A DNA stretch of 64,000 bases from Bordetella parapertussis (lineage in GTDB: Bacteria > Acidobacteriota > Terriglobia > Bryobacterales > Bryobacteraceae), in contig CALQCC020000006.1 in the NCBI GenBank assembly GCA_943328975.2, positions 62,001 to 126,000 on the forward strand, in the 5' to 3' direction. The notes under the pieces were generated by a model. That model ran no database searches. It saw only the letters and a program-made list of their open reading frames with translations, and was not told where the DNA came from. Below, one piece after another: positions 6,255 to 11,449 of the stretch (its first letter is position 1; each line of letters opens with the position of its first letter). A program made the position numbers and the translations under genes.

Positions 6255-6611
6255 ATGAACGACACGCGTAAGATTGAAAATGTCCACGTAGCGCTGTGGC
6301 TGATGAAAGACATGTCTTGGGTTTCCGACTGGAAGCTCCTCGGCCTGATCATGGTTGTGCCGACGCTTGCGGTCTCCGTGAAGATCTGCTGGGACACGAG
6401 GCACCGTATGGCGGATATGGTCCACAACATCGCGGTCAGTTTGTGGATTTGCGCGAATACGGTATGGATGATTGGCGAGTTCTACTACCAGGACATGACG
6501 CGTCCCTTCGCTCGGGGCTTCTTCTTTGCAGGGATGGCCTTACTCATCGGCTACTACCTTTGGGCGTGGACACGTCGAGAGGATGCACCGGGAGGTCAGG
6601 CCTATTTTTAG
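6255..6611 (+). CDS. Small membrane protein of unknown function
   Basis: A 118-residue protein with three hydrophobic stretches (about residues 30-47, 60-78 and 90-108) and a charged end (WTRREDAPGG). The ATG at 6255 is chosen because GGGAAGG lies 4-10 nt upstream; a TTG 12 bp earlier is possible but has no such site. I do not recognise a family. It is divergent from argF and leads a row of four same-strand genes with an ECF sigma factor and two DUF2892-type proteins, so a role in the same envelope response is possible but unproven. Confidence 0.75.
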   Translation: MNDTRKIENVHVALWLMKDMSWVSDWKLLGLIMVVPTLAVSVKICWDTRHRMADMVHNIAVSLWICANTVWMIGEFYYQDMTRPFARGFFFAGMALLIGYYLWAWTRREDAPGGQAYF

Positions 6612-6690
6612 AATTTCAAGATTCCCGCGAACCGAAACGCTCCTTCGCACCCTCTTGTCTAGTGAGAACGCTTTTCAAGGAGACACAATC

Positions 6691-6903
6691 ATGTTTTACG
6701 TAAAGAATTTGCCCGGGTGGGAACGTGCGCTGCGTGTGGGTGCCGGAGGGATGATGGTGGCGGGTGGATTGTACTGGATGCCGGGATCGCCGATGGGTTA
6801 TGTTGCCATCGCAATGGGCATGATAGCCGGCGTGACGGGGTTGATCGGGTTCTGCCCGATGGACGCCATGGTGGGCCGTAAGCTGGACAAGAGTAAGGGG
6901 TAG
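6691..6903 (+). CDS. DUF2892 (YgaP-like transmembrane) protein
   Basis: A 70-residue protein beginning MFYVKNLPGWERALRVGAG, with two hydrophobic segments and the motif GLIGFCPMDAMVG. The N-P-G-WERA(L/I)R start and G-(x)-CP ending are the hallmarks of DUF2892, the small membrane module also found at the end of the YgaP rhodanese. AAGGAG at 6678-6683 supports the ATG at 6691. It ends 5 bp before the ECF sigma factor gene, so the two are probably co-transcribed. Confidence 0.85.
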   Translation: MFYVKNLPGWERALRVGAGGMMVAGGLYWMPGSPMGYVAIAMGMIAGVTGLIGFCPMDAMVGRKLDKSKG

Positions 6904-6908
6904 AAACG

Positions 6909-7439
6909 GTGACTCGGAGTTGGCGGCATGATGCGACGTTGATTGAGGCGGCACAGGCCGGTGACGAACAGGCGCTGGTGTCGCTGCTGGAAGCGGCGCA
7001 ACCGGATATCCGCAAGTATGCTCGCGTGAGTTGCCACCACGCGGACGATGTAGACGATGCGGTGCAGGAGACACTGTGGCTGCTCTACCGGCGAGTGGGA
7101 AGTCTGCGCGCACTCACATCTCTATCCGGCTGGTTGTACACGGTGGTGCGGCGCGAGTGCCAACGGATGGCGCGCTTGGCTTTCGGTGGCGGGACGCATG
7201 AGATCGAGGCGATGGAAGACGACTTGCGCCTTTCCACGCGGCCGCCAGTGGAACTGCGGGTGGATCTGGCACAGGCGATTCGTTCGCTGCCGGAACATTA
7301 CCGCGAGGTCGTTCTCTTGCGCGACATCGAAGAGATGTCGATTCAAGAGATCTCTTCGGCGTTGATATTGACGCGGGAGAGCACGAAGGCTCGGTTGCAT
7401 CGTGCGCGGGCGCTGATCCGGGAATACTTGAAAGACTAA
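6909..7439 (+). CDS. ECF-type RNA polymerase sigma factor
   Basis: A 176-residue group IV sigma factor starting at GTG 6909. Region 2 (about residues 12-85) contains DVDDAVQETLWLLYRRV and SGWLYTVVRREC; region 4 (about 125-170) contains LPEHYREVVLLRDIEEMS and a helix-turn-helix ending TKARLHRARALIREYL. No classical anti-sigma gene (zinc anti-sigma or DUF-type with a large periplasmic domain) follows. Instead it sits between two tiny DUF2892-type membrane proteins with a conserved CPM motif, which are the only candidates here for a sensor or anti-sigma. Confidence 0.92.
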   Translation: MTRSWRHDATLIEAAQAGDEQALVSLLEAAQPDIRKYARVSCHHADDVDDAVQETLWLLYRRVGSLRALTSLSGWLYTVVRRECQRMARLAFGGGTHEIEAMEDDLRLSTRPPVELRVDLAQAIRSLPEHYREVVLLRDIEEMSIQEISSALILTRESTKARLHRARALIREYLKD

Positions 7440-7445
7440 AAGGCC

Positions 7446-7694
7446 ATGGACATTCCAAAATTCAAAACCTGCGAGGTAGCTAGTCCGTTCGCCAGCCGAT
7501 CGGTGGTGGAGCATCTGGTGCGCGGTTTGATTGGTGCTGGTTCGCTGGGCTGGGCCATCTACCTTTCCGACACTCAGCCACTGGCTTTGATTCCGCTTGG
7601 CCTGCTCGCACTGCTTGCGTTTCGAGGTTGCCCGATGTGTTGGATACTCGGACTGATTGAGACGATCGGACGCGGGCCCACGCGCCAGAAATGA
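7446..7694 (+). CDS. DUF2892-like membrane protein
   Basis: An 82-residue protein with about 25 soluble residues, then two hydrophobic segments (about 30-45 and 47-58) and the ending FRGCPMCWILGLIETIGRG. The (G)CPM motif lines up with the GFCPMDAMVG of the DUF2892 protein upstream, and here it has a second cysteine (CPMC). The start at ATG 7446 follows the sigma gene stop by 6 bp and has AAAGG just upstream. Probably the last gene of the sigma factor operon. Confidence 0.75.
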   Translation: MDIPKFKTCEVASPFASRSVVEHLVRGLIGAGSLGWAIYLSDTQPLALIPLGLLALLAFRGCPMCWILGLIETIGRGPTRQK

Positions 7695-8911: not shown

Positions 8912-11449
8912 ATGCGTTGCGCGGCTTGTCAGGCTGAGATTGTCAGGCCGGGACGGGTTTGTCCCGAGTGTGCGGTGCCGCTTGATCCCGATCCGGACGC
9001 TACAGAGACTGTAGCGATGAAGGTGAAGCCGCCGTCTTCTTCTGGTTCGTCCGCCAAGGATGGGCGGTTTGCTCCAGGAGTATTGCTGGCGGAGCGCTAC
9101 CGTATCATTTCGATGATCGGGCGAGGGGGCATGGGCGAGGTTTACCGGGCCTCCGATTTGAAGCTGAACCAACCTGTGGCGCTGAAGTTTTTGCCTGCCG
9201 CTGTTGCGAAGAAACCTGGGCTGCTGGAGCGGTTTCATGGCGAGGTTCCCATCGCTCGGCAAGTCTCGCATCCGAACGTGTGCCGCGTTTACGACATTGG
9301 AGAGGCTGAGGGCACCGCGTTCATTTCGATGGAGTATGTGGACGGCGAGGACCTCGGCAGCCTGCTGCGGCGCATCGGGCACCTGCCTACTGCCAAAGCT
9401 ACGGAGATCGCGCGCAAGTTGTGCGCGGGTTTGGCTGCGGCGCATGCGAAGGGCGTGCTGCATCGCGACCTGAAGCCTGGCAACATCATGATCGATGGGC
9501 GCGGGCAGGTCCTCATCATGGACTTCGGGCTCGCGTCGCGGGCGCGGAGGTGCGCAACGGGACTCCAGCGTACATGGCTCCCGAGCAGCTTTCGGGGAAA
9601 GAAGTTTCGGAACGCAGCGACATCTACGCGCTCGGGCTGGTGCTGCACGAAATCTCCATGGGGGAGCGCGCGTTCAAGGGTAAAGACCGCTCCACCCTCC
9701 CGAGCGCGGTGAGCATCGTCCGCGACATCGACCCCATCGTCGACCGCGTCATCGCCCGCTGCCTCGATCCCGATCCGGCCAAGCGTCCGCAATCGGCCCT
9801 GGGCCTCGCCCGGATGCTGCCCGGTGGCGATCCGCTGGCCGAGGCCCTTGCGGCGGGCGATACACCCTCCCCCGAACTCGTCGCCAACTCCGGCTCCACC
9901 GAAGTCCTGCGCGTCCCCGTCGCCATCGCATGTTTGGCCGCCGTGATCCTGGGCATTGGAGGCGTCGCCTAGATGCAGCAGCGCAACAACTTCGTCAACA
10001 AGGTGCCCATGGAGTTCGCGCCGGACTTTCTCGCGGTCAAGGCTCGCGACATCGCCGCTGGTTTGGGCTACACCGAACGACCCGTGGATCGCGCCTTCGG
10101 CTGGTTCACGGATGCGGGATACCGCACCTACGCGAGCGCGCAGCCCGACGCCGCGCGCTGCTTGACACAACAGGGAACCAATCGGCCTCCCCCGCTCATC
10201 TTCTGGTACCGCGAAGCTCCCCGCTACCTGGTGGGAGAGGAGGGTGGAGCCGTCGAGAGAAATACCCCCCCCGCGGCGGAGCCGGGAAATCTCGAAATGC
10301 AGCTCGATTCCGAGGGTCGCCTGCTGCAGTTCCGCACTTGGCCGTCCGAGACGGCAGCGGCAGAGAAGCCCGCCACAGACTTCTCCAAACTGCTGACCGC
10401 CGCGGGATTCGATCCCTCGAAACTGACCGCAGCCGATCCCTCGTGGACACCGCCGATGGCGTTCGATACCCGAGCCGCGTGGACAAGCAAAGAGGGCTCC
10501 GACCCCATCCGCATCGAAGTAGCCTCGTGGCGGGGGCAGGTGGTGGCGTTGCAGCGCCAGCTTCCCTGGAACGTGGCCGCGCCCCCGGTGAATCGTCTCT
10601 TCAACTTCTATTTTTTGCTCCTGTTGCCGCTGGTGGCCGCCCTTGTGGCTTGGCGCAACCTCCGGCTGGGGCGTGGGCACAAACGCGGCGCGAATCGCTT
10701 GGCCGGGTTCCTCCTCGTGTGCCAGATCACTTCTCAACTCCTCGCGTCCCACCACATTCCGCAGAACGAGGAAGGCTTGGTCATCGTTACGGCGCTGCGG
10801 GACGCCCTGTACCTCCCCGTAGCCCTCTGGTTGATCTACGTTGCCTTTGAACCTTTCCTGCGCCGTTACGTGCCCCACACTTGGTTGGCTGGAGCCGCTT
10901 GCTAGAGGGCCGCTGGAAGGACCCGCTGGTGGGCGGCAATTTACTGGCGGGCTGGGCATGAGCCTTATAGAGATGGTGGCCCCCAACCCCAACGTGAATG
11001 TATTCCTACTTGCGGATGCCAGCGGTTCCATCGCATTTCTCGCCGCCATGGCGAGCAAAGGGATCAGCGCCACATTGCTCCTTACGTTGCTGTGGCTCTT
11101 GTTTCGCATTCCCACCCGGCGCGATTGGCTGGCGTCCGTTCTGATGGTCGGCGTGTCAATTGCCGTGGCCGGGCCACGCGGCATTGGAATATTGACGTTT
11201 GGGACCTTAATAGGGATTGTGGCTCTGCTCCTCACGCGCTTCGGGGTCCTGGCATTGGCAGCGGCTTTCGTTACCGCCTACCTCGCCGTCTTCGGGGTCG
11301 CGCCTTGGACCACGTCTATCTCGGTGTGATACGCCAAGACGATGTTCCTCGCCATTGCCTTGATTCTGGCCATCGCGATCTACGGCTTCCGCACCACGCT
11401 CGCGGGGCGGGCCTTGTGGCAAGATGGATTGGAAAAGGACGGTGCCTAA
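8912..11449 (+). pseudogene. Broken membrane Ser/Thr protein kinase gene
   Basis: Pieces of one large kinase in three frames. The intact start has a zinc ribbon (MRCAACQ...CPECAVPL), then the kinase lobes with [27 protein letters not shown] and DFGLAS. At about 9536-9541 the frame shifts and continues [17 protein letters not shown] to about 9969, apparently missing part of the activation loop. An in-frame TAG at 9970-9972 interrupts the first membrane segment; the same frame continues with MQQRNNFVNKVPMEFAPD to about 10875. A single-base shift near 10880 gives GWSRLLEGRWKDPLVGG, then another shift near 10945-10965 leads to a multi-TM tail. An in-frame TGA at 11327-11329 stands where Trp would fit, followed by YAKTMFLAIALILAIAIYGF to TAA 11449. 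Five lesions make this non-functional as one kinase. Confidence 0.88.

Follow-up and report, generated by a model that had tools for sequence, protein, structure and literature searches.

Membrane proteins that restrain an ECF sigma factor are known from Bacillus, where SigM has the anti-sigmas YhdL and YhdK, the latter small in size; the module described here may be alike in this respect. Cysteine-based control of ECF sigma factors has likewise been described for the ZAS-type anti-sigmas (e.g. ChrR), which carry a separate zinc-binding domain (PMC8999054), whereas the candidate regulator considered here is a membrane protein of 65–77 aa or less without one. For the CorE-like sigmas (ECF238) it is the cysteines of the sigma factor itself that are tied to the metal response; as described in the same source, CorE bears a C-terminal cysteine-rich extension (PMC8999054), whereas the two cysteines of the sigma factor in our window (the whole stretch of 64,000 nt that was analysed) lie in region 2, and its match to region 4 extends as far as residue 168 out of 176, which places it outside the CorE-like group.

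Among known systems, the module would work most like SigF-NrsF of Caulobacter, for which PMC3511200 describes an autoregulated ECF sigma factor, a membrane regulator with two important cysteines, and a link to DUF692 (bufferin-type) operons and metal stress. On the same account the two differ in that NrsF is larger, its cysteines are thought to be periplasmic, its gene follows that of the sigma factor, and the promoter reads GTAACC-N16-CGAA versus GCGAAYC-N16-SCCTCTT here (PMC3511200). No NrsF gene was present among the six window genes scanned, and the locus is not counted as SigF/NrsF. E. coli YgaP shares with the membrane partner a two-helix PF11127 transmembrane domain with a cysteine ending helix 2, but in YgaP this domain is fused to a rhodanese domain (PMC4730233). 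A search of open-licence PMC papers found none linking DUF2892 with an ECF sigma factor. To our knowledge, YgaP has no sigma gene partner.

Organization of the locus

The following features were identified, in order along the window:

6255–6611: ORF of a 118-aa membrane protein, beside argF
6627–6656, forward strand: promoter-like element GCGAACC-N16-CCCTCTT, 34 nt 5' of the ATG of the DUF2892 gene
6691–6903, forward strand: 70-aa two-helix membrane protein, PF11127 (YgaP-like TM, DUF2892), sigma-linked subgroup, with GFCPMDA at the probably cytosolic end of helix 2 (second Cys lost)
6909–7439, forward strand: ECF sigma factor, 176 aa, GTG start, with invariant Cys42 and Cys84
7446–7694, forward strand: 82-aa membrane protein with GCPMC and weak DUF2892 likeness

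The coordinates and 5–6 bp spacing of the gene row given by the initial annotation were correct: 5 bp separate the DUF2892 gene from the sigma gene, and 6 bp separate the latter from the 82-aa gene, which is probably co-transcribed with it. The ECF identity of the sigma factor was also borne out, as it consists of regions 2 and 4 only, both above the Pfam cut-off (Sigma70_r2, 37.4 bits; Sigma70_r4_2, 49 bits). Both flanking proteins had been assigned to DUF2892; this held for the 70-aa protein (45.9 bits against a curated cut-off of 25.3), whereas the 82-aa protein scored below the PF11127 cut-off (13 bits, E 0.12). The CPM motif that the two were noted to share is indeed present, as GFCPMD upstream and GCPMC downstream, but it is a general PF11127 motif, and the proteins have little in common except this stretch. 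In agreement with the reported lack of a standard anti-sigma, Pfam detected no anti-sigma domain in the six window genes scanned. A search of solved structures with the DUF2892 protein returned a chance match only.

A layout with DUF2892-like proteins on both sides of the sigma factor did not prove general. The 82-aa protein lies next to the sigma factor in the window genome only, among the loci examined, and has stand-alone relatives in three genomes of the same genus. The window is an odd member of its clade: its upstream protein has CPMD, and the GCPMC protein on the downstream side looks unrelated.

The 118-aa protein, previously taken to head the row, is an older neighbour belonging to the host locus and lies outside the unit. 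It matched no Pfam family above the cut-off, and it occurs in 4 of the 237 genomes of the bacterial family, all of one genus; the three same-genus species that have an orthologue are not among the 15 genomes in which the sigma factor had a match. Two of these genomes (G194 and G195) retain argF and the 118-aa gene, and their likeness to the window stops at ∼6571–6584, before the element and the DUF2892-sigma pair; in the third, the 118-aa gene alone is alike. Since two same-genus genomes keep argF and the 118-aa gene without the pair, the pair sits beside an older host gene, and the 118-aa protein was rejected as a member of the unit because these loci diverge before the element and have no sigma match.

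At 8912–9972 of the window, two overlapping frames make up a PknB-type kinase gene seemingly split by a frameshift. Its position, ∼1.5 kb downstream, raises the idea that the sigma factor is under the control of this kinase (8912) in ECF43 fashion, which we regard as very improbable: the kinase frame appears broken, no Ser/Thr kinase gene was found by the pair in the three annotated DUF2892-bearing relatives opened, and L049 has a histidine kinase only. Furthermore, region 2.2 of the sigma factor keeps an acidic DVDD instead of an STTA-type motif, the motif of the ECF43 member EcfP being given as STTA (PMC8999054), and the sigma factor is therefore placed outside ECF43.

Association of DUF2892 with a sigma factor clade

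The initial annotation had made its proposal depend on co-occurrence of DUF2892 with this ECF group elsewhere, and such co-occurrence was found across several phyla. A profile run in all frames identified a DUF2892 partner beside the sigma factor in 16 of 19 non-actinobacterial clade loci (duplicate loci counted once, two Ensifer loci near-identical, and the loci of the seven sigma-adjacent DUF2892 proteins that form the profile, including the window's, counted among the 16). With the same profile, all 52 gene rows around more distant ECFs lacked a partner; some of these loci occur twice in the set, and some had a flank of only ∼1.5 kb. The partner lies upstream on the strand of the sigma gene in 15 of the 16 loci and downstream in Nostoc, and the clade loci without DUF2892 beside the sigma factor are L004, L005 and L053. 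The pair occurs in Acidobacteriota, Alpha-, Beta- and Gammaproteobacteria and on one cyanobacterial plasmid. A tblastn search of 72,556 plasmids with the window DUF2892 protein returned six records, all six adjoining the sigma factor, and the pNL1 DUF2892 protein returned five, all sigma-linked and a subset of those six.

Two PF11127 genes are present in the genome, which might favour a pairing of chance neighbours; given adjacency across phyla and the shared element, we consider this extremely improbable, and it is contradicted by the contrast of 16/19 versus 0/52 and by plasmid matches that were sigma-linked only. The best reading of these sequence data is that the genes for DUF2892 and the ECF sigma factor make up a single regulatory module that moves horizontally.

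Close relatives of the sigma factor are rare and scattered, which points to horizontal movement. Within the bacterial family of the window, 15 of 237 genomes had a sigma match (E 1e-20), three of them in the clade (its own genome, G016 at 78% identity and G052 at 76% over a contig end); the remaining 12 are more distant ECFs. A sample of the phylum gave a match in 1 of 396 genomes, its own, and samples of the classes of G636 (Microvirga locus; Alphaproteobacteria) and G632 (Natronospirales locus) gave 3 of 385 and 2 of 369, respectively, one of the latter already known. Further relatives, on named contigs and plasmids, came from an uncultured proteobacterium, from two MAGs of Gammaproteobacteria, and from Ensifer, Novosphingobium (pNL1), Cupriavidus, Variovorax, Nostoc, enterobacterial plasmids and actinobacteria. 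Plasmid matches were opened as a sample, covering 1 of ∼21 enterobacterial and 3 of 7 Ensifer records.

The enterobacterial plasmid opened (L053) carries a solitary clade sigma alongside haloacid dehalogenase, ABC transporter and oxidoreductase genes, with no DUF2892 within 5 kb of the sigma gene. Some 20 enterobacterial plasmid records are similar to L053, many of cattle or milk origin. Viral carriage was also considered and set aside: 20 IMG/VR stretches fitted a pattern, none coding for a relative, and phage records gave weak ECF matches only (11 records, identity ≤30.1%).

A promoter-like element shared by the clade

Of 15 distinct loci, 13 have the element GCGAAYC-N16-SCCTCTT upstream of the DUF2892 start, its halves separated by exactly 16 bp; the match in L073 is weaker, with a spacing of 17, and L072 showed no recognisable element. 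In the window, the element is the sole exact match and ranked first of 127,936 window positions in a leave-one-out analysis, with 0 of 515,624 background positions scoring as high. For the leave-one-out analysis, the matrix was built without the site in question and, for six loci, also without its closest relative; in all 13 cases the true site still held the top rank within its locus. In nine of the loci, none of the 515,624 background positions scored as high; one did so in each of two loci, four in L036 and 11 in L069. Among 13 non-training loci (excluding L079, a repeat of L035), the top site precedes the sigma operon in nine (L004, L005, L076 and L155–L160); of the exceptions, L074 has a 15-bp version, and L072, L073 and L053 have no site by the matrix. 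In Nostoc, the DUF2892 gene stands apart 3' of the sigma gene yet keeps the element.

The operons concerned differ in content. In L004 (306–3833) and L005 (1388–4399), the clade sigma is the last gene of a bufferin-type operon with the element in front; by Pfam the L004 operon encodes a DUF2282 precursor, an MbnB-type enzyme, DUF2063 and DoxX, while in L005 DUF2063 was identified by Pfam and the other genes were assigned by likeness. In all eight actinobacterial loci opened, a short one-helix ORF upstream ends at or just before the sigma start, in the place of DUF2892. It would encode a microprotein of ∼30–47 aa with CxC or a single Cys near a basic tail (e.g. ...LLLCACTVTL(L)RRRRRQRG; motif variants CAC, CTC, CAY and CSR), an internal start giving 30–47 aa where the first ATG or GTG frame is longer, and one of these ORFs is annotated as a 47-aa hypothetical protein. 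Each of the eight has a GAATCC...GGCTC/GCCTC-type element 5' of it. A 114–147-aa protein with no Pfam match was seen right after the actinobacterial sigma gene in L156 (2040–2405), L159 (2219–2563) and L076 (4587–5030).

In a quick tree, weak in several branches (15 of 43 open), the sigma factors of actinobacteria cluster together (99) next to the DUF2892 group, and the bufferin-operon pair is likewise a single group (98). The tree implies three changes for DUF2892, for which one gain and two losses would do.

Because the element tracks the sigma clade, the sigma factor is very probably autoregulated, transcribing its own operon; the strongest evidence for the element being the sigma factor's own promoter is that it accompanies the sigma factor into operons of different kinds.

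Search for further targets

In its own genome, the element with ≤1 mismatch occurred at 78 places versus 85 for the reversed pattern, i.e. without excess, and the three non-operon matches checked (L096, L097 and L179) were all inside genes. A stricter pattern applied to 18 genomes or records gave 25 places, eight of them at the sigma factor's own module, compared with six for the control. The sole credible target seen is the sigma factor's own operon, an outcome that fits either a feedback brake or a partner that is the output.

Since there is no excess of matches and the sites checked are intragenic, the partner itself could be the output, and this constitutes the main rival explanation: DUF2892 or the microprotein, made when the sigma factor is active, would handle thiols, metals or sulfane sulfur at the membrane, and the sigma factor would be controlled otherwise, e.g. 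by its own cysteines. We regard it as possible but rather unlikely. It accords with the absence of other clear element targets and with the Nostoc DUF2892 gene, which is a separate, target-like unit with the element, while the sigma genes that end the bufferin operons of L004 and L005 indicate that targets can be metal-stress effectors. Moreover, YgaP is described as a sulfurtransferase whose transmembrane part has been proposed to be a thiocyanate exporter (PMC4730233). However, a one-helix actinobacterial partner of ∼30–47 aa suits a regulator more than an effector, and a close pairing with the partner mostly upstream is what one usually sees where a regulator is autoregulated.

Conserved cysteines of the partner and the sigma factor

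The cysteines of the partner, whose conservation the initial annotation had proposed to check, are conserved in the group but not fully in the window. All 16 sigma-linked partners have G(F/Y)CP, and 15 of the 16 have a second cysteine (CPxC) at the end of the second helix, beside a basic tail; the exception is the upstream copy in the window itself, which has one Cys (GFCPMD). The window DUF2892 thus lacks the CPxC of the sigma-linked subgroup and shares its other trait, as it adjoins an ECF of the clade with the GCGAAYC-N16-SCCTCTT element. Generic PF11127 proteins of relatives have CPAY, CPMM or similar where the site aligned, and CPxC in no case. Cys-Pro is therefore a trait of the family as a whole, and the second cysteine is the mark of the sigma-linked group. 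From the positive-inside rule we infer that both ends of the partner are cytosolic, which would place the cysteine motif at the inner membrane face. In E. coli YgaP, C159 is reported to end transmembrane helix 2, and the rhodanese domain preceding helix 1 is cytosolic (PMC4730233); C159 is the cysteine that matches the motif of the partner.

In the sigma factor, Cys42 is invariant in 27 of 27 sequences and Cys84 in 26 of 26 (sequences with that part). Both region-2 cysteines also occur in 10 of 20 outgroup ECFs, a group from the window's own bacterial family, and so are not specific to the DUF2892 pair; the sigma cysteines probably predate the pairing. At least seven of these 10 cysteine-bearing acidobacterial relatives (L037–L048) adjoin an OsmC-like gene, one of which was checked by Pfam.

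An alternative that follows the sigma factor alone would make it the thiol or metal sensor via Cys42 and Cys84, with the membrane protein as an accessory. Invariance of both cysteines in the clade, their presence in related ECFs beside OsmC-like genes, and their retention without DUF2892 in L053 and the bufferin-operon sigmas all agree with such a role. It would nevertheless not account for the conservation of the membrane partner and of that protein's second Cys, and we consider it improbable.

Proposed mechanism

Building on the observed pairing, the shared promoter-like element and the conserved cysteines, we consider it narrowly probable that the tiny membrane protein restrains the sigma factor via its cysteine motif and basic tail, with thiol or metal stress releasing it. 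DUF2892 would act on the sigma factor as a negative regulator, serving as an anti-sigma or a tether in the membrane; both of its ends would be cytosolic, and its motif and tail would bind the sigma factor and keep it at the membrane. Thiol-reactive stress (an oxidant, a metal ion or reactive sulfur species) would break this contact, and the freed sigma factor would start an autoregulatory loop that also yields more partner. In the window, the downstream GCPMC protein may compensate for the one-Cys CPMD partner upstream.

Several observations count against restraint by the partner: the missing second Cys of the window DUF2892, the clade loci L004, L005 and L053 without DUF2892 beside the sigma factor, and the partner's cytosolic parts, which are very short for an anti-sigma. 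The occurrence of Cys42 and Cys84 in related ECFs, and the absence of targets seen beyond the sigma factor's own operon, weigh in the same direction.

A more specific version, which we put forward tentatively and regard as unlikely, is that of a minimal anti-sigma in which one cysteine-bearing helix with a basic tail, either the second helix of DUF2892 or the stand-alone actinobacterial microprotein of ∼30–47 aa, anchors the sigma factor. The cysteines of partner and sigma factor would make up a shared metal or disulfide site of four cysteines (two from each), and its opening would be the signal.

If restraint by the partner is correct, it would give a function to the widespread tiny membrane family PF11127/DUF2892 and would reveal a means, not described to date, by which a sigma factor can be retained at the membrane. 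It would also add to the ECF regulators one of very small size, which ordinary anti-sigma searches miss, and provide a compact mobile sigma-promoter pair whose promoter is defined. Lastly, the link between this clade of sigma factors and operons for bufferins (copper-binding peptides) means that metal or thiol stress can be tested as the signal.
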